From Candidatus Vogelbacteria bacterium RIFOXYD1_FULL_51_18 (GTDB lineage Bacteria; Patescibacteriota; Minisyncoccia; Phycocordibacterales; UBA9988): DNA of 48,268 bases. The stretch lies in NCBI GenBank assembly GCA_001823095.1, contig MHTL01000008.1:2221-50488 (forward strand), written 5' to 3'. The notes under the pieces are model-generated. The model did not search any database, was not told the DNA's origin, and saw only the letters and a list, made by a program, of their open reading frames with translations. Both the position numbers and the translations under genes were made by a program. Positions 26 through 38,235 of this stretch are shown one piece after another. Numbering within the stretch: position 1 is the first letter of the stretch; the number at the start of each line of letters is the position of its first letter.

Positions 26-670
26 ATGAAGACCTACGAACCGATGGCTGGCGAGAACGTCAGCGAAACCGCCAAGCGAATGGTCGCTCTGGCGAAGAAG
101 ACGAAGGGACCCGTGACAGCGAAGTTCAACGACATCGCACTCACGGTCAAGCCCGGCGACAACCCCTACGCGATCGTGCAGTACTACCAGACCGAGTCGA
201 ATCGCCGTCACGAGGAGTACGTGAAGTCCCCGGAGTACAAGAAGCGGCAACGCGAGGCCAAGGAGGCCCAGCAACGCCATGACTTGATACTCAAGGGCGC
301 TCTCGCGGTCGCTCCCGAGAAGATGACGCTCCGAGACGAGGAGGGCTGGAAGAAGTCGGTCGCGGTCAACACGGACGGCTACGGCGGCGGAGTCATCAGC
401 TTCGCCGGGCGATGGGCACGTCTTATGGAAGGCCGGATGACCAACGGCGACACTCTCGAAGCGTGCGCAGACGAGGCTTCCTCGCTGGCGGACAACGAGG
501 GCATCACCGGCTTCATGTACGGGGCCGCCGTGTCCATTCTCTCGCAGGTGTGGATTCATGGCGAGCAACTCCGCCGCTGGCACAACCTCAAGACCCAGAT
601 CGGTCACGAGGGCGAGAAGGCCAACAAGAGCGGTGGCGTGCTCAACCCCGCGCTTCTGTCCCTCGGATAA
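26..670 (+). CDS. hypothetical protein, probable cargo gene of an integrative element whose right end is at ~801-940
   Basis: 214 aa ORF with strong SD (gaaaggag) and a downstream hairpin terminator; no recognised family. Confidence 0.75.
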   Translation: MKTYEPMAGENVSETAKRMVALAKKTKGPVTAKFNDIALTVKPGDNPYAIVQYYQTESNRRHEEYVKSPEYKKRQREAKEAQQRHDLILKGALAVAPEKMTLRDEEGWKKSVAVNTDGYGGGVISFAGRWARLMEGRMTNGDTLEACADEASSLADNEGITGFMYGAAVSILSQVWIHGEQLRRWHNLKTQIGHEGEKANKSGGVLNPALLSLG

Positions 671-694
671 CGGCGAACGAAGGTTTGCCGTCAA

Positions 695-737
695 TAGGGC
701 TCCCCACGAGAAATCGTGAGTGGAGCCCTTTCTTTTT
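695..737 (+). terminator. Rho-independent terminator
   Basis: agggctcc...ggagccct stem followed by ttctttttt. Confidence 0.75.
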
Positions 738-800
738 TGATTTATCTCATTATTTTTCATATAATACATTTGTATTCACTTTGCGAATTCTTGGATTTAA

Positions 801-940
801 TGCCGCCAAAGAAAAACTTGAAATTGTCAGCGGTGCGGCTCCGCCGCCTTTCCGTCCGCCAGCTGGCGGATTCGCGGGGGGACTTCCTCGCCGCCGCAGG
901 CGGCGAAATGCGTTCGGACTAATTCAAGAATACTGCACCA
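801..940 (+). repeat. element right-end repeat, copy A (attR-like, ends in CACCA)
   Basis: tgccgccaaagaaaaacttgaaattgt start identical to copy C at 37787; hairpins tccgccagctggcgga and tttcgccgccgcaggcggcgaaa; ends ttcaagaatactgcacca. Confidence 0.75.
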
Positions 941-6176: not shown

Positions 6177-8864
6177 ATGCCGCCATTTAATAATTTCACT
6201 ACAAAAGCGCGCGAGGCAATACGCCGCGCGCATGAACTTGCCATAGAGCGGGGGCAAAACCAGGTCAATCCGGTGCATCTTTTGGCGTCGCTCCTCCTGC
6301 AAGAGGAGAGCATCGTGCTCACCATCTTGGACAAGCTGGAGATAGACACCATGCTCCTCACTGATTACGTGCTGGACTCCATTGAGGCGCCCGAGGGCTC
6401 GTCGGTGCTCTCGCCTTCCTACCAGATATACCTCACCCAAGAGCTCGTGCACACCTTTGACCAATCGGGGAAAATTGCAGGGAATCTGCGGGACGAGTTT
6501 GTCTCCACCGAGCACTTCTTGCTCGCACTCTTGGAAGTACCTAGTCAAGCAAAAGAGATTCTCACGCGCTTTCGCGTGGGACGGGACGGGATAGTGCGCG
6601 TGCTGGAGGAGCTCAAGAGCGGAGGTATGGAAGAAGCCCGTAGCGGAAAAAAACTCCGCAATTTGGAAAAGTATACCAAAAACCTTACCGAGCTCGCGCG
6701 CGCGGACAAGCTTGATCCGGTCATCGGACGCGATGAGGAGATTAAACGCATCATGCAGATTCTCTCGCGTCGCACTAAGAACAATCCCATCCTCATCGGC
6801 GAGGCGGGAACGGGCAAGACCGCAATCGTGGAGGGGCTCGCACTGCGCATTGCGCACAATGATGTACCGGAGTCCCTTAAAGACAGGGAAATTGTCTCGC
6901 TTGACCTCGGGCTCCTCATGGCAGGGACCAAATACCGCGGCGAGTTTGAAGAGCGGCTGAAGAACATTTTGAAAGAAATTGAGCGCGCGGGGAACAAAAT
7001 CATTCTCTTTATTGACGAGATACACGCCATTGTGGGCGCCGGCGCGGCAGAAGGCGCCTTGGATGCGTCTAACATGCTCAAGCCCGCGCTCTCACGCGGC
7101 GAACTGCGCGCGGTGGGCGCGACAACTCTCAAAGAATACCAAAAGCATATTGAGAAAGACCAGGCGCTTACACGACGCTTCCAGCCCGTGCATGTGGAGG
7201 AACCCTCTCCTGATGACGCGGTTACTATCCTGCGAGGGCTGAAGGAAAAGTATGAATTGCACCATGGCATCCGCATCACGGACGAGGCGATTGTGGCGGC
7301 GGTGACTCTCTCCTCGCGCTACATCTCTGACCGCTTTCTCCCCGACAAGGCAGTGGACCTGATTGACGAGGCTGCCTCGGCCCTGCGTCTTGAACTTGAG
7401 AACAAACCGGAGACGCTGGAGAAGGCGCAACGCGACATCACGCGCCTGCGGGTGGAGCAGGAGGCGCTTAAGGAGGAGGTGAATTCGCACGCAGACACAA
7501 AGTCAAAGACGCGCATTAAGGACATTGAGAAGGAAATTGCAAATCTGCGCGAAAAGACGGGGGAGTTGGAATTGCGCTGGGAAAATGAGAAGGAGGCCAT
7601 CGGGGGCATCCGCGATATTAAAGAGAAACTGGAGAGCGCACGGGTGGAAGCGGAACGCGCCGAGATGAACACTGATCTCTCAAAAGCGGCGGAAATTCGC
7701 TACGGGCGCATCCCCGGGCTCAACAAAGAACTCAAGGCAAAGGAGGCGCGGCTCAAGAAGTTGCAGAGCTTCCGCAAAATCACCAAGGAGGATGTGACGG
7801 GGGAGGATATCGCATCCGTGGTCGCCCGCTGGACGGGCATCCCGGTGCGGCGCATGCTTGAGGAGGAGGCGGATAAACTCGGGCGCATGGAAGAGGAACT
7901 GGGCAAACGCGTGCTGGGGCAGGTAGAGACAATCAAGAAAGTGTCTGACGCAGTGAAGCGCTCACGCGCGGGCATGGCTGACCCCAAGCGGCCGATTGGC
8001 TCCTTCATCTTCCTCGGTCCCACTGGCGTGGGCAAAACCGAGCTCGCCAAGGCGCTTGCCGAATTTATGTTTAATGACGAAAAGTCGCTCATCCGCGTGG
8101 ATATGAGCGAGTATATGGAAAAGCACGCGGTCTCCAAGATGATTGGCTCGCCACCCGGCTATGTGGGCTATGAGGAGGGCGGCGCGCTTACCGAACTGGT
8201 GCGGCACCGGCCCTACTCGGTAGTGCTCTTTGACGAGATTGAAAAGGCGCACCCGGAGGTTTTCAACATCCTCCTGCAGGTCCTGGACGACGGACGGCTG
8301 ACCGACTCCAAGGGACGGGTGGTGAACTTCAAAAACACCATTATCATCATGACCTCAAACATCGGGAGCGATGTTCTCAATCGTCAAGGGGCGCTCGGCT
8401 TTAGCGAGGGGGGTGCGGTGCGCGACAATGCGACGGTGAAGGAGCGGATTATGGAGAACCTCAAGGAACGCTTCAAGCCCGAGTTCCTCAACCGTGTGGA
8501 TGACATCATCTTCTTCAATATCTTAAGCAAGGAAGTGCTCAAGGGGATTGTGGGCAATCAGATTGCGATTGTCTCCGCGCGCCTCAAGGCAAAAGATATT
8601 GAGCTTGAAGTGAGCGAGGATGCACTTAATTACCTCGGGGAAAAGGGCTTTGACCCCCACTACGGCGCGCGGCCGCTGAAGCGCCTCATTCAAGACAAGG
8701 TACTCAATCCGGTGGCGGAGTTCATCATTACGGCTAAGGTGCGCGGCGGCGGCGCGGTATCGGTAACCATTGTAAACGGCGAGCCTAAGGTGGAGCTCGT
8801 CCGCTCGGGAAAAGCCCGCGCCAAGCGAATCTCTGAAAAGCACCCCGAAGGCGCGATGGCGTAG
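6177..8864 (+). CDS. clpB: ATP-dependent chaperone ClpB
   Basis: Clp_N, two AAA+ modules (GEAGTGKT, GPTGVGKT), long ClpB-type middle domain. Confidence 0.92.
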   Translation: MPPFNNFTTKAREAIRRAHELAIERGQNQVNPVHLLASLLLQEESIVLTILDKLEIDTMLLTDYVLDSIEAPEGSSVLSPSYQIYLTQELVHTFDQSGKIAGNLRDEFVSTEHFLLALLEVPSQAKEILTRFRVGRDGIVRVLEELKSGGMEEARSGKKLRNLEKYTKNLTELARADKLDPVIGRDEEIKRIMQILSRRTKNNPILIGEAGTGKTAIVEGLALRIAHNDVPESLKDREIVSLDLGLLMAGTKYRGEFEERLKNILKEIERAGNKIILFIDEIHAIVGAGAAEGALDASNMLKPALSRGELRAVGATTLKEYQKHIEKDQALTRRFQPVHVEEPSPDDAVTILRGLKEKYELHHGIRITDEAIVAAVTLSSRYISDRFLPDKAVDLIDEAASALRLELENKPETLEKAQRDITRLRVEQEALKEEVNSHADTKSKTRIKDIEKEIANLREKTGELELRWENEKEAIGGIRDIKEKLESARVEAERAEMNTDLSKAAEIRYGRIPGLNKELKAKEARLKKLQSFRKITKEDVTGEDIASVVARWTGIPVRRMLEEEADKLGRMEEELGKRVLGQVETIKKVSDAVKRSRAGMADPKRPIGSFIFLGPTGVGKTELAKALAEFMFNDEKSLIRVDMSEYMEKHAVSKMIGSPPGYVGYEEGGALTELVRHRPYSVVLFDEIEKAHPEVFNILLQVLDDGRLTDSKGRVVNFKNTIIIMTSNIGSDVLNRQGALGFSEGGAVRDNATVKERIMENLKERFKPEFLNRVDDIIFFNILSKEVLKGIVGNQIAIVSARLKAKDIELEVSEDALNYLGEKGFDPHYGARPLKRLIQDKVLNPVAEFIITAKVRGGGAVSVTIVNGEPKVELVRSGKARAKRISEKHPEGAMA

Positions 8865-8897
8865 CTGTCCAACCTCCGAGGTTGGACAAAACTTGTG

Positions 8898-8969
8898 TGC
8901 TCCCACGAGGATTCGAACCTCGATTTCAGGCTTCGGAGGCCTGCGCTCTATCCATTGAGCTATGAGAGC
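8898..8969 (-). tRNA. tRNA-Arg (CCG)
   Basis: cloverleaf, loop CTCCGAA, acceptor GCTCTCA/TGGGAGC. Confidence 0.9.
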
Positions 8970-9019
8970 ATGGGCGGGGTCCGTTCGCCGTGGTGGACTA
9001 ACGGGGATTAATTAACGAG

Positions 9020-9103
9020 TGCGCCGGGAGGGATTCGAACCCCCGTAGCCCAAAGGGCGCGAGATTTACAGTCTCGTGCAATTGACCGCTCTGCCACCGA
9101 CGC
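9020..9103 (-). tRNA. tRNA-Tyr (GTA)
   Basis: class II tRNA, loop CTGTAAA, acceptor GCGTCGG/CCGGCGC. Confidence 0.9.
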
Positions 9104-9172
9104 ATAGGTGCATTCGCGTGGCAGTATAACATATTTGCGTTCTGGCGGGGAATCGGGTATAGTTTCCCTCGT

Positions 9173-9331
9173 ATGTCACAAGATAACCTCATCAAGCTCG
9201 CCTGCAGCACATGCAAACGAGTTAACTACTGGAGTAGCAAAAACCGCAAAAAGGTGGAGCGTAAAATTGAGCTCAAAAAGTACTGCAAGTGGTGCAAGAA
9301 GGCCACAATACACAAAGAGGTAAAGAAATAG
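9173..9331 (+). CDS. rpmG: 50S ribosomal protein L33
   Basis: MSQDNLIKLACSTCKRVNYWSSKNRKKVERKIELKKYCKWCKKATIHKEVKK, two CxxC. Confidence 0.93.
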   Translation: MSQDNLIKLACSTCKRVNYWSSKNRKKVERKIELKKYCKWCKKATIHKEVKK

Positions 9332-9340
9332 TGTATAATC

Positions 9341-9418
9341 ACAAACAGCTTGATTTTTTCCGGCTTTACCCTCGCCAGAGGCGGGGCTCCGACGCCGATC
9401 AAAAATCAAGCCGTTTGT
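9341..9418. repeat. 18 bp inverted repeat around a GC-rich centre
   Basis: acaaacagcttgattttt ... aaaaatcaagccgtttgt (17/18 complementary). Confidence 0.75.
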
Positions 9419-9426
9419 TCTCTTTT

Positions 9427-9498
9427 GGGCCTATAGTTTCAATGGTAAAACGGCGGTCTCCAAAACCGTAGTTCGAGGTTCGACTCCTCGTGGGCCCG
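9427..9498 (+). tRNA. tRNA-Trp (CCA)
   Basis: loop CTCCAAA; acceptor GGGCCTA/TGGGCCC. Confidence 0.92.
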
Positions 9499-9501
9499 CA
9501 G

Positions 9502-10344
9502 CTATACCCACCCAATATTTTTGTTCCGTTTAAACCAGGTGCGTTGACGTTTGGCGTAGTGCCAAATATCGAGCTCTAATTTTTCCAGCATTTCTTCTTT
9601 GGTGATTTTATTTTGCAGATAACGCGCGAGCCAGCGATATTCAAGACCGAAGCTCTCCATCCGCTTCCATGAGAGACCGCGAGTGTGCAAGCGTTTTACT
9701 TCTGCAAGCATTCCGCCGCGCATACGCGAGAGGAGGCGCAGGTGAATTTTTTTCTTCAGCTTCTTGTCGGGGAGATCAATACCAATCCATTCAAACTTAA
9801 TTCCTTCTGGAGCGCGCTTCTGCATTCGCGGCACCTTCCCTAGCGCTTCTGCAATCTCAATCGCGCGGATAAGGCGACGCGGATTGTGCCAGTCAATGGA
9901 CTTTGCGCGCGCGGCGTCCTTCTTTTTTAAGAGCGCAAAAAGTTTTTCTATACTTATTGTCTCTAATTTTTTCCGCAGAGCCGGATTTGGTGGAACAGAG
10001 GGGAGGAATGTACCCTCAACAAGCGCATCAATGTAGAGGCCGGTGCCGCCACAGATGATGGGAGTTTTGCCGCGCACGAGGATGCTCTGGAGCGTCCGCG
10101 CGGCATCCCGTTGGTAGCGCGCAACACTGTAGCGCCGCCGCGGGTCGGCAACGGAGAGAAGGTAGTGGGGGATGCCCGCCATCTCCTTTTTTGTCACCTT
10201 GCCTGTGCCAATGTCCATGTCGCGGTAGACTTGCCGCGAGTCAGCGGAGATAACCTCGCCGCCCACCTTTTTTGCAAGCCGCACCGCGTAAGCGCTCTTG
10301 CCGCTTGCGGTGGGTCCCACAATGATGTATGCCTTTTTCTCCAT
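9502..10344 (-). CDS. miaA: tRNA dimethylallyltransferase
   Basis: IIVGPTASGKSAYA, ADSRQVYRDMDIGTGK, GGTGLYIDAL. Confidence 0.95.
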   Translation of the reverse strand: MEKKAYIIVGPTASGKSAYAVRLAKKVGGEVISADSRQVYRDMDIGTGKVTKKEMAGIPHYLLSVADPRRRYSVARYQRDAARTLQSILVRGKTPIICGGTGLYIDALVEGTFLPSVPPNPALRKKLETISIEKLFALLKKKDAARAKSIDWHNPRRLIRAIEIAEALGKVPRMQKRAPEGIKFEWIGIDLPDKKLKKKIHLRLLSRMRGGMLAEVKRLHTRGLSWKRMESFGLEYRWLARYLQNKITKEEMLEKLELDIWHYAKRQRTWFKRNKNIGWV

Positions 10345-10410
10345 ATTTGATGGAAGTCTCACTTCCATCACCCTAGCAGATTGCCCAAACATGTGGTACT
10401 TTTTGAGTGC

Positions 10411-10492
10411 GCCAGAGTGATGAAATTGGTAAACATGCACGACTCAAAATCGTGTGCCGCAAGGCTTGTGGGTTCAAATCCCACCTCTGGCA
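10411..10492 (+). tRNA. tRNA-Leu (CAA)
   Basis: class II tRNA, loop CTCAAAA, acceptor GCCAGAG/CTCTGGC. Confidence 0.9.
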
Positions 10493-10496
10493 CTAT

Positions 10497-35150: not shown

Positions 35151-35221
35151 GGGCCTATGGTCTAGTGGTACGACGCCACATTCGCATTGTGGAGACGGGA
35201 GTCCGATTCTCCCTAGGTCCA
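35151..35221 (+). tRNA. tRNA-Ala (CGC), CCA displaced by element insertion
   Basis: loop TTCGCAT, acceptor GGGCCTA/TAGGTCC with G3:U70. Confidence 0.88.
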
Positions 35222-36673
35222 CATTTTAGAAAAGCGCAAGGATTTGGAAGCCGCCTCGCTTCGCTCGGCGGCCAAATCGTAAGGTTTTCTGGACGAAAAA
35301 ATCAGTTGGCGATTCTGCAAAATGCAGTTCGAGCCGATATTTTTAAGAAATGTTGTCATTTCTGTCTTGTTTTCGGATTCAAGCAGTTTCGCGGCTTGAT
35401 TTAAGGACAAAACGAACTCACGAGCCGGTTCGAGCCACGATAGACCTTTCTGTTCAAAATCTTCTATTTGTTCCTTTAATCCGACCTTTTGCTTGACTAA
35501 CTTTTCTTTGCGAGAGGTGTATTCCTCCGCAGTAATCGTTTCGGCTAAATAGACATCAAGCAGTTTCTCTAGTTTTTGCTCATTCACCGCAAATTCTGTT
35601 TTGAGATCTTGGGCAGTAGTTTTGGCTTGTTCCTTTGCGCGGGATTCTTCCTTTTCAAGTTTGGCCAAAACCATTTCTGTGTCGTAGCTCGACAAAGAAA
35701 CTTTTTGAAGGAAAGATTTGATTTGCGGATATAGTTCCTCGCCCCGCAAAAAGTGTTTTTCTTGGCAAGGGCCCTTCTTCTTGGTGCAACGGTAGTAAAT
35801 ATATTCTTTGCCGCTTGGCTTGATTTTCTTTTCAGCTGTTATAGCCGCAGAGCAAGGACACTTCATTAAGCCAAGAAAATCAAAATTGTGCTTTTTAACT
35901 TTTTGCGGTTTTCCTTTCTCTCGCATAATTTCCTGCACCCTATCAAAAAGTTTCTTTGAAATTAGCGGCTCGTGAGTTGCTTCGTGGATTTCACCTTTGT
36001 ATTTCATAAGACCGAGGTAGAAAACATTTTGTAAAAGCTCATGGACTTTTCCGATCGAAATATCGTTGCCCAAATTGCTTTTGAGATTTACTCGTTTGCA
36101 CCACTCGGCTATCTCAATAATCCGAAAACAAGAGGCATTGATGTTGATCGAGAAAAAGCTCACAAAGTTAAAAAGATTTTTGAGCTTTATGCCACCGGAA
36201 ATTACAATCTCCGCGAATTAGCCGAGTGGTGCTCCGCTTGGCCACACACCGTTTCGTACTTTTTGCCTCATTCCGCGCGTTACATTCTCGCGCAGGGTGT
36301 CCACATAATATTTACTTTGGCCAAAAGCAATTTGGAGCATAAATAAACCCTGCGGTGTCGCTTCGAACCAAAATGTCGGGAATTTTAGCGCAACAATTTT
36401 TAGCGTATCCACAAAATATATGACCTTGCCACCATCAATCGAGTTTCTCGCTAAACGGTCTGGATTCCACGCTAAAATTCCCGAGGCAACACCTTTTTCA
36501 ATTTCGCCAAGCATTTCGTTAAATACTTCGCGACCCGGTTCTTTCGCGGTTTTGGACTCATAAAATTCTTTCACCACAAACAGATTTTGTTGCTTGGCGA
36601 ATTCCCGAAGCTCCGTCAATTGTGCCTCAATACTTAAAACTTGACGTTCTTCGTCCTCACTTGATTTTCTACA
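35213..36673 (-). pseudogene. large serine recombinase interrupted by an internal inversion and lacking its native 5' end
   Basis: minus-strand fragments CRKSSEDEERQVLSIEAQ.TELREF...GAPLG* and AEWCKRVNLKS...FSKMWT*; missing YLNNPKTRGIDVDREK...LRELAEWC encoded on plus strand 36098-36232. Confidence 0.88.
36098..36232. repeat. inverted segment flanked by perfect 14 bp inverted repeats
   Basis: GCACCACTCGGCTA at 36098-36111 and TAGCCGAGTGGTGC at 36219-36232. Confidence 0.92.
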
Positions 36674-36683
36674 ACTTGGTTTT

Positions 36684-36978
36684 GATTAAAAATTTTCTTT
36701 TCCCAAAATGCAGAATCGCCAACTGATTTTTTCGCCCAGAAAACCTTACGATTTGGCCGCCGAGCGAAGCGAGGCGGCTTCCAAATCCTTGCGCTTTTCT
36801 AAAATGTGGTCTATTCTTGAAATAGTTCGGACGCATTTCGCCGCCGCAGGCGGCGAGGAAAGCCCACCGCAAAATTCCGAAATCGCGGCTCCGCCGCGCC
36901 GATAAAAACTGCCAAAGAACCTGTAAAAATATCGGCTCGAGCTGCATTTTAATTTTGGGAAAGGAAAATTTTTAATCA
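36684..36978. repeat. ~245 bp attP-junction-like copy (recombinase 3' end plus right-end repeat B) in terminal inverted repeats
   Basis: gattaaaaattttcttttcccaaaatgcag ... ctgcattttaattttgggaaaggaaaatttttaatc; interior matches 35224-35350 and repeat C in inverted orientation. Confidence 0.75.
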
Positions 36979-37179
36979 TAAAATTCATAAGATTTAGGCC
37001 ATAAAAACAGCAGAAATGCTGGTTTTTTTTGTCGCTATTGACTTTCTTATGCACATATGCTATATTTGAGTTGTTATCAGAATGGTTCTGGTAACGGTAC
37101 CTTGAATCCGTCGCTGATGGCCCGTAGAGATGAGTAATCCTGCGGTAAACCAAGCGACACAAGAGAAGGAGAAGTAGCC

Positions 37180-37659
37180 ATGTCGATCAACGTGTATCTG
37201 AAGGATGGTGTGGAACAGCTCGAAGAGTTTCAGACCAAGGAGCGGAAGTCGAAGGACGAACAGCAGTGGAACGAATACTATCTCCCGGGTCTCCAAGTTT
37301 CCCGAGACAAGGGACGGTGGTATTTTTACCTTCACGAGCTGACTGATCCGATCCCTCCCATCGTGAGAGACCTCGTGGACGAGATCTCGTTCTACGATCG
37401 GATTCCGCGTCGTCCAGAGCGTGCCATTGGCATCTACAAGCACGATGATGCTGAGGCAGAACTCGACCGCAGCGGCGAAGCTGTGAGCTACGGCCTGAGA
37501 ATCCGCGGCAAGAGCATGGAGAACATGCTTGAGCTGTACCGGAGAATCAGGGCCGGCAAGATCACTCCGATGGAAAGCTGGGACACGGAGCAGGAGATGC
37601 CTCAAACCCCAGAGACTCCGGTTCCCGACGCCGTAGCTGACGAAATCAGCATCTCCTAG
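37180..37659 (+). CDS. hypothetical protein, probable element cargo
   Basis: 159 aa, SD agaaggag, own terminator. Confidence 0.75.
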   Translation: MSINVYLKDGVEQLEEFQTKERKSKDEQQWNEYYLPGLQVSRDKGRWYFYLHELTDPIPPIVRDLVDEISFYDRIPRRPERAIGIYKHDDAEAELDRSGEAVSYGLRIRGKSMENMLELYRRIRAGKITPMESWDTEQEMPQTPETPVPDAVADEISIS

Positions 37660-37688
37660 TTTTAACAAGGACTGAGCAGACCCACTGC

Positions 37689-37726
37689 TCCCCGCTACGT
37701 CTTCGGACCTAGCGGGTTTTTTCTTT
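37689..37726 (+). terminator. Rho-independent terminator
   Basis: cccgcta...tagcgggttttttctttt. Confidence 0.8.
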
Positions 37727-37786
37727 TCATTTGTTTTTAAATGATTTATCATTTGATTGTATTCGTTACCCGAGTTCATTATTATT

Positions 37787-37914
37787 TGCCGCCAAAGAAA
37801 AACTTGAAATTGTTATCGGCGCGGCGGAGCCGCGATTTCAGAAATTCGCGAGGGGCCTTCCTCTCCGCCTGCGGCTGCGAAATGCGTCCGAACTATTTCA
37901 AGAATAGACCACCA
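37787..37914 (+). repeat. element right-end repeat, copy C (attR)
   Basis: tgccgccaaagaaaaacttgaaattgt shared with copy A; ends ttcaagaatagaccacca. Confidence 0.8.
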
Positions 37915-37933
37915 AATTGCTATACTATATCTC

Positions 37934-38235
37934 ATGAAAGGATTTATTGATTTTATCCGCGAGCAGGGAGTGGTGGGACTGGCGGTGGCTTTATCCTAGG
38001 CGGCGCGGTGTCTAAGGTCGTCTCGGCGCTGGTGAGCGACATTGTCAACCCGTTGCTCGGCCTCGTGCTCGGTGCGGCGGGAGACCTCAAGAGCGCCTCG
38101 CTCTCCATAGGCTCGGCGACCATTCTCTACGGCGACCTCATTGTAGTAATTATTGACTTTGTGGTCATTGCGCTTGTGGTCTACTACGGCATTAGGATTA
38201 TCGGCATTGATCGACTTGACAAGAAGAAAGTGTAG
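37934..38235 (+). pseudogene. mscL: large-conductance mechanosensitive channel MscL, frameshifted near codon 19
   Basis: MKGFIDFIREQGVVGLAV then +1 shift to FILGGAVSKVVSALVSDIVNPLLGLVLG; gcggtggctttatcc probably lacks one G. Confidence 0.88.

Follow-up and report, generated by a model that had tools for sequence, protein, structure and literature searches.

A family of integrative elements at tRNA gene ends in Patescibacteria, with a large serine recombinase, an inverted second attP and conserved inverted repeats in the recombinase gene

How a serine recombinase comes to place DNA at the end of a tRNA gene, and why the inserted element should carry its attachment site a second time and inverted, are questions raised by a locus of Candidatus Vogelbacteria bacterium RIFOXYD1_FULL_51_18 (GCA_001823095.1), which lies in a stretch of 48,268 nt (contig MHTL01000008.1, positions 2,221–50,488; hereafter the window). 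Few serine integrases are, to our knowledge, known to use tRNA genes. A preliminary description had proposed a serine-integrase element at the 3′ end of tRNA-Ala(CGC), an interpretation that is partly supported here: the element and its attL, attR, and attP can be read, but the copy is decayed and its recombinase broken, which had gone unnoticed. The locus probably belongs (at a rough probability of 0.7) to a family of integrative elements that is widespread among Patescibacteria and combines a clade-specific large serine recombinase (LSR), an attB at tRNA ends, two modules, a DNA-level fold in the LSR gene, and, less surely, a single-stranded stage.

The element runs in the order tRNA, A, LSR, A′, CCAC, C′, cargo, C, and mscL side, where repeat analysis of the window identifies A/A′ and C/C′ as two near-perfect inverted repeat pairs, both far above chance, which abut at the shared CCAC core (Table 1). 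The attL consists of CTAGGTCCAC at 35213, the 3′ end of the tRNA gene, followed by ATTTTAGAAAAGCG, and the attR, 2.7 kb beyond, of CAAGAATAGACCAC at 37899–37912 followed by CAAATTGC; all strings quoted earlier for these sites are present in the window, and the att sites are real. When the outer flanks are joined at the core, the result is GGTCCACCAAATTGC, which reads as a tRNA-Ala whose CCA is encoded, in agreement with the attB reconstructed in the preliminary description. The internal attP, CAAGAATAGACCAC running directly into ATTTTAGAAAAGCG, has a single occurrence inside the element (minus strand, 36792–36819). Its identification as attP stands, but it is inverted, an orientation not mentioned before, and should not be taken for the trace left by a simple circle. 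An inverted second attP is found throughout the clade, and the copy in the window is no accident of assembly.

The window LSR comprises Resolvase (PF00239), Recombinase (PF07508), and zinc-ribbon (PF13408) domains, matched in two pieces. It lacks a start codon, with TAA standing immediately 5′ of SCRKSSEDEERQ, and a 107-nt piece at 36112–36218 is flipped between perfect 14-nt inverted repeats; with this piece in the opposite orientation, the LSR frame is continuous through APLGYLNNPKTRGIDVD. The two arms that enclose the flip form one of several nested stems in the coding sequence. The catalytic Ser/Arg motif Y-x-R-K-S-T is invariant in nine family members, and the window copy retains CRKSS with the start lost. 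As judged from its sequence, the window element is a decayed family member.

A survey of 41 genomes of the order yielded 48 LSRs with PF07508 and readable flanks, 28 of which have an antisense tRNA or tmRNA gene at or near their 3′ end. A wider scan, in which nine LSRs served as queries against 84,980 species genomes, gave 80 loci, nearly all in Patescibacteria, including 70 with a readable 3′ end; in this close family, an antisense tRNA lies at the LSR 3′ end in 62 of the 70, and one tRNA-Lys and one tmRNA raise the count to 64. The suggestion in the preliminary description that this recombinase family be sought beside tRNA 3′ ends is thus borne out. The orientation of the LSR is almost fixed, with its 3′ end at the tRNA in 64/70 and one probable flip (L148); a claim that the LSR never occurs in the opposite orientation was dropped because L148 looks LSR-flipped. 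Of the 62 tRNA loci, 49 have arm A repeated in inverted orientation past the start of the LSR, mostly over 65–165 nt and mostly with 95–100% identity to A′, and the same is seen at six other loci (55/70). Approximately 28 contigs stop 0–280 nt past A′, as expected of an assembly break in a repeat, and C is inverted at the far end in 15 of about 19 loci with further DNA beyond A′. Together with four elements of the order in which both repeat pairs are complete (L109, L111, L112, and L113) and the window element, both pairs are found in 20 elements. As a control, inverted-repeat flanks were found on 49 of 76 LSR open reading frames (ORFs) vs. 6 of 336 other ORFs. In a later-fetched set of 17 loci, 16 are at tRNAs and 15 have inverted flanks; one row of this set (L277, with 39 coding repeats) probably reflects masked N and was not relied on. 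The elements are small (2.7–8.8 kb), with one or few cargo genes.

In the LSR tree, a single clade of 83 rows (SH-aLRT 99) contains all 63 rows with inverted repeats. Another clade, of ten, is without inverted repeats and has only one member near a tRNA, and further clades target tRNAs without inverted repeats. Related LSRs were detected in 123 of 287 genomes sampled across the phylum (E ≤ 1e-80), a count that includes relatives outside the clade. Taken together, LSR-driven integration at tRNA ends is well supported at the sequence level. In the order survey, several of the remaining LSRs end at group I introns or at a weak tRNA, and one LSR in IMG/VR ends at an intron-bearing tRNA-Thr. Other-clade LSRs at L032, L033, L040, L080, and L205 end at group I introns, that of L205 inside a tRNA-Thr gene, and seem to target intron-bearing tRNA genes. 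The same architecture occurs outside Patescibacteria in L199 (Kiritimatiellia) and L135 (a metagenome-assembled genome called Syntrophaceae), by transfer or binning contamination. At L155, an additional C.A junction in direct orientation past the element end (7432–7754) fits a tandem of two elements, and LOOT RNA (RF03000) occurs at L130 (9366–9483) and L155 (16912–17036), two of the few loci with no tRNA at the LSR end.

The position of the crossover can be approached by comparing each attP with its own tRNA. In an automatically aligned attP set, with tRNA position 73 as the reference, 28 of 29 elements have an internal attP identical to their own tRNA at positions 72 and 73, cases with T72 or T73 among them, whereas agreement at position 71 is at background level; in attR comparisons, C74 is shared and C75 not always. 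This pattern fits a crossover dinucleotide at 72/73. The right half of attP starts with CCA in 28 of 35, so that the element usually restores an encoded CCA. The left half has the consensus AAAATAGGTTCGAGC, and the TTCG of attP stands 23 nt (24 nt in the window clade) before position 73, compared with 19 nt for T54 of the tRNA T loop. The distal motif of attP, the T-loop sequence TTCGA, is therefore shifted outward relative to the tRNA by 4 bp in the main clade and 5 bp in the window clade, and a uniform 5-bp shift for all members was rejected. The zinc-ribbon motif of the A118 integrase falls at positions 16–24 in attP and at 11–19 in attB, a 5-bp shift (PMC3783163). Counted from 72/73, positions 11–19 correspond to tRNA positions 62–54, the T loop and adjoining stem, and the distal half-site that the family LSR reads in attB may accordingly be the T loop. 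A terminator-like hairpin opens 9 of 19 attR flanks vs. 5% of random windows, as expected if a tRNA was severed from its terminator.

The LSR gene carries an unexpected feature. That of the window contains six perfect inverted repeats of at least 13 nt vs. 0.15 expected, and 69 LSR genes have a mean of 3.46 inverted repeats per 1335 nt (codon-shuffled sequences, 0.11; 140 further ORFs from these loci, 0.27), with no comparable enrichment of direct repeats (0.09 vs. 0.04). A stem score over the LSR genes gave 247 stems observed vs. 0.7 expected. The stems are nested and conserved in position, forming 12 helices on a 70-gene codon alignment, with 70% pairing in 48 genes vs. 22–32% with slid partners and two-sided changes in 78 of 185 pair columns vs. 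38–44 with slid partners. LSRs of other clades are practically without coding stems (0.00 and 0.09 vs. 4.36). Folding with DNA parameters, relative to codon shuffles, gave z values of −7.1 to −16.5 for 12 strong genes, −1.1 to −7.4 for eight weak genes, and +0.7 to −2.9 for controls, and RNAalifold independently recovers the 3′ domain of the fold, again with two-sided changes.

From the target, core, module architecture, and coding stems, all of which can be read in the sequences themselves, a mechanism may be inferred in which the clade-specific LSR would recombine the element attP with an attB situated where a tRNA or tmRNA gene ends (3′). The half of this attB on the tRNA side would be formed by the T arm and the acceptor 3′ strand, with the T-loop TTCRA as the distal (zinc-ribbon) motif and the crossover at 72/73. 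The integrated form would consist of two modules, A-LSR-A′ and C′-cargo-C, and since the inverted repeats of both meet as the second attP, an excised circle would hold two attP copies as an inverted repeat. As one strand, the LSR module would fold with A/A′ as its closing stem, and pairing of A/A′ and C/C′ would make a double-stranded attP, such that the excised single strand would form two lobes linked by a duplex attP. Patescibacteria are thought to import DNA as single strands. A single-stranded stage, whether in uptake, transfer, or replication, is tentatively taken as the most likely reason for the fold, although at somewhat less than even odds. A broader version, in which elements across the phylum move as a folded single DNA strand whose paired attPs serve as the duplex site and whose integrase gene serves as the scaffold, with the serine recombinase inserting at the near-universal tRNA T arm and acceptor end and the system being fed by single-stranded DNA uptake, is rather doubtful as a whole.

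Several observations weigh against these proposals. The pairing is weak (40%) in 22 of the 70 LSR genes, though most such loci retain the flanking repeats; the flank that holds the downstream half of attB is not conserved; and no recombination directionality factor, relaxase, or Rep was identified. No clean empty site was found in a tRNA-Ala search of 41 genomes, in an mscL search of 118 genomes of the order (in which few mscL genes have a tRNA nearby), or in a joined-flank search for L112, with no close relative among the searched genomes; the genus-mate G118 is rearranged. Because no empty tRNA-Ala/mscL site was found, the attB of the window is a reconstruction that rests on the internal attP, the sister elements, and the hairpin-bearing attR flanks. 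No free circle was found either, and none of nine weak matches in IMG/VR is shown as one. In addition, serine recombinases, whose known substrates are so far duplex DNA, cut both strands, so that a folded single strand would yield hairpin-capped ends and an integration of the CTXphi type, through one strand only, would not be straightforward.

Other explanations account for parts of the same evidence. A duplex circle with two inverted attPs could behave in the manner of the yeast 2-micron plasmid, where recombination between the inverted repeats flips one half, aids amplification, and keeps the arms identical, and the coding stems would then be incidental. The topology of the excised circle, arms that are 94–100% identical within most elements, cargo operons in both orientations, and the flipped appearance of L148 agree with such a circle, but two equal attPs should give LSR orientations of about half and half instead of the near-fixed orientation observed, unless selection acts against flipped insertions, which would be under the tRNA promoter. 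As recombination of attP with attP is no normal LSR reaction (PMC3783163) and the coding stems are left unexplained, this circle is considered unlikely. The same low probability is given to a functionless by-product, in which the inverted attP goes back to an ancient dimer or to a rearrangement, and arms and stems are kept perfect at replication through gene conversion or hairpin template switching. Stems of perfect Watson–Crick pairs with no G.U excess, the location of the window LSR flip at such a stem, and the homogenization of arms within each element would follow naturally from it. However, stems and arms stand at homologous positions across a clade spanning many phylum-level groups, are absent from other LSR clades and neighbouring ORFs, and show changes on both sides.

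The strong nested fold within the gene, together with a tRNA promoter directed into the element, might alternatively point to an RNA-level structure that serves either the mRNA of the LSR or an antisense transcript reading through from the tRNA. The mispairs disfavour this, since G.T and A.C are nearly balanced (94:124 for the coding strand and the inverse for its complement), unlike the 84:11 in tRNA stems of the same loci; the fold is thus not maintained as RNA of either strand and consists of DNA-level inverted repeats, which makes a role in RNA quite improbable. Least probable of all, to the point of being nearly negligible, is that the inverted copies are joins made by assemblers or amplification. 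All genomes are metagenome assemblies or drafts and many contigs end just past A′, but the same layout with clade-specific arm lengths occurs in dozens of independent assemblies, some within long contigs, the window layout recurs in a tRNA-Leu element of the same genome, and the coding stems compensate. A single-stranded stage remains the reading preferred for the fold.

Compared with known systems, the family shares with LSR prophages and islands of the phiC31, Bxb1, and A118 type the Resolvase, Recombinase, and zinc-ribbon domains, the short-core attP/attB, and an outward distal motif of attP (4–5 bp here and 5 bp in A118; PMC3783163), but differs from them in its use of the tRNA/tmRNA 3′ end, the doubled inverted attP, the DNA-level fold in the LSR gene, and the small size. 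Tyrosine-integrase islands in tRNA/tmRNA genes (Islander/TIGER) likewise insert site-specifically at 3′ ends and have varied cargo, and in the family, as in such tRNA islands, the integrase gene lies at one end of the element beside the tRNA/tmRNA 3′ end; the recombinase is unrelated, however, the core is 2–6 nt here instead of a long tRNA 3′ segment, and a second att is present in inverted orientation. The closest parallel to a folded attP is CTXphi, in which two opposite att copies (attP1/attP2) pair in one strand to a duplex attP recombined by XerC/XerD (PMC3089051). CTXphi uses host tyrosine Xer enzymes, an approximately 150-nt hairpin, and a known single-stranded phage genome, whereas the family here has its own LSR and arms of hundreds of nucleotides, and may pass through a single-stranded stage; because the enzyme is a serine recombinase and no Xer enzyme, the family may work like CTXphi but is not classed with it. 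In the yeast 2-micron plasmid (FLP/FRT), inverted repeats holding the recombinase site similarly split a circle into two unique halves with the recombinase gene in one, but the recombinase is a tyrosine enzyme, there is no tRNA-gene integration, and flipping of the LSR half is rare in the family here. In streptococcal integrative and conjugative elements (ICEs) with a serine integrase in rumA, the element end also lies within the 3′ part of the integrase gene, so that insertion alters the integrase C-terminus (PMC4701971); these ICEs differ in their protein-gene target, conjugation genes, and lack of a described inverted attP. Genes for a relaxase or a type IV secretion system, as carried inside ICEs and integrative and mobilizable elements, were found neither in the window element (the LSR and one 159-aa ORF without Pfam match) nor among 30 Pfam-scanned cargo proteins. 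A DDE-type insertion sequence was rejected for the window element, which has an LSR instead of a DDE gene and ends that are att half-sites with a shared core.

The cargo of the family is varied, and cargo operons are found in either orientation. Two diversity-generating retroelements (DGRs) are present as cargo, with reverse transcriptases accompanied by Lcl_C or Fib_succ_major target-like proteins (L113 and L146). L113 also has an Avd-like ORF and a 151-nt repeat pair (10412–10562/12034–12184, 87% alike). Also carried are a HydF/radical-SAM set (hydrogenase maturation) accompanied by a deoxyhypusine-synthase-like gene, glutamate dehydrogenase together with an aminotransferase, alcohol dehydrogenase, D-Ala-D-Ala ligase, a glycosyltransferase, and an M23 peptidase. 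Defence-like cargo comprises a PDC-S37 helicase/nuclease, a Z1 helicase with a C5 methylase, GmrSD with M78 and Beta protein, and Schlafen.

Mobile elements of Patescibacteria are poorly known, and the metabolic, DGR, and defence-like cargo, together with the occurrence of related LSRs in 123 of 287 genomes, makes the family a candidate main road of gene flow in the phylum and suggests an unrecognised way of gene movement in Patescibacteria. If true, the folded-strand proposal would amount to a general cargo-exchange system for these bacteria. It is unusual on its own for a protein gene to double as a DNA fold that is both conserved and compensated, and such a fold opens the proposed single-stranded stage to direct test. 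Serine integrases serve as genome-writing tools, and insertion at almost universal sites would become available with a clade whose LSRs recognize the near-invariant T loop and match only 72–73. No account of Patescibacteria LSRs at tRNAs or of an inverted second attP was found in the open-access literature, subscription journals and preprints lying mostly outside this search, and an earlier description is possible.

The host assembly (634 kb, 99% complete) has four LSRs with PF07508, each at or near a tRNA or tmRNA gene, namely tRNA-Ala(CGC), tRNA-Ala(TGC), tmRNA, and tRNA-Asn (195 nt away). It also carries recombinase-free elements with the same ends at tRNA-Leu(TAA) and tRNA-Met. The tRNA-Leu(TAA) element overlaps the left end of the window and keeps the order A-A′.core.C′-cargo-C with A shrunk to approximately a half-site and C/C′ 94% identical over 99 nt, whereas in the tRNA-Met element only a remnant of the LSR 3′ end is left, in the A arm. 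On another contig of the host (L119, contig C12), a 197-nt inverted repeat pair (12641–12837/14884–15080, 99.5% alike, 2.4 kb apart) with no LSR near may be a similar element.

Table 1. Coordinates of features of the tRNA-Ala(CGC) element and of the neighbouring tRNA-Leu(TAA) element, in window positions.
Feature	Position	Strand	Basis
tRNA-Leu(TAA) element, right part, without recombinase; tRNA just left of the window	26–940	+	Cargo ORF 26–670, C arm, attR core GCACCA 935–940
tRNA-Ala(CGC), target, tRNA side of attL	35151–35222	+	ARAGORN and sequence
Large serine recombinase gene, broken	35213–36690	−	PF00239, PF07508, PF13408
Arm A, 101 nt, element half of attL; core CCAC 35219–35222 at its start	35219–35319	+	99% inverted match to A′
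Coding-stem arm, pairs with 35693–35708	35943–35958	−	Inverted-repeat analysis of LSR gene
14-nt inverted repeats 36098–36111/36219–36232 enclosing the flipped 107-nt piece; arms of one nested coding stem	36098–36232	.	Repeat and stem analysis
Further coding stems	36470–36484/36376–36390; 36322–36335/36070–36083; 35966–35978/35415–35427		
Arm A′, inverted copy of A	36709–36809	−	Repeat analysis
Core of inverted second attP (C′.CCAC.A′)	36806–36809	−	Repeat analysis and string search
Arm C′, inverted copy of C	36806–36908	−	Repeat analysis
Remnant of LSR 3′ end and LSR upstream sequence, ahead of cargo; cf. tRNA-Met element	36924–36981	+	Repeats I3, I4
Promoter-like TTGACT-17-TATATT of cargo gene (putative)	37038–37066	+	Read from sequence
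Cargo ORF, 159 aa	37180–37659	+	Without Pfam or PHROG match
Terminator-like hairpin and T run 3′ of cargo ORF	37691–37725	+	Read from sequence
Arm C, 103 nt, other half of attP; attR core CCAC 37909–37912	37810–37912	+	91% inverted match to C′

Beside the attR of the window, mscL (37934–38235) is broken by an in-frame TAG after MKGFIDFIREQGVVGLAVALS and thus looks frameshifted or misassembled; in L112, an element at tRNA-Ser in another genome, mscL likewise stands immediately after attR. Among the window tRNAs at 8897–10493 and in L016 (contig C8, where the contig coordinate is the window position plus 2220) and L017, several tRNA genes without an encoded CCA have C74 nonetheless, as if this were a relic of earlier insertion and excision at 72/73. 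In L242, from a genus-mate of G031, a hairpin after tRNA-Ser(GCT) repeats the tRNA 3′ end in inverted orientation (GTCTCCGCCAATG .. CATTGGCGGAGAC) and is perhaps a minimal relic of an element of this family.

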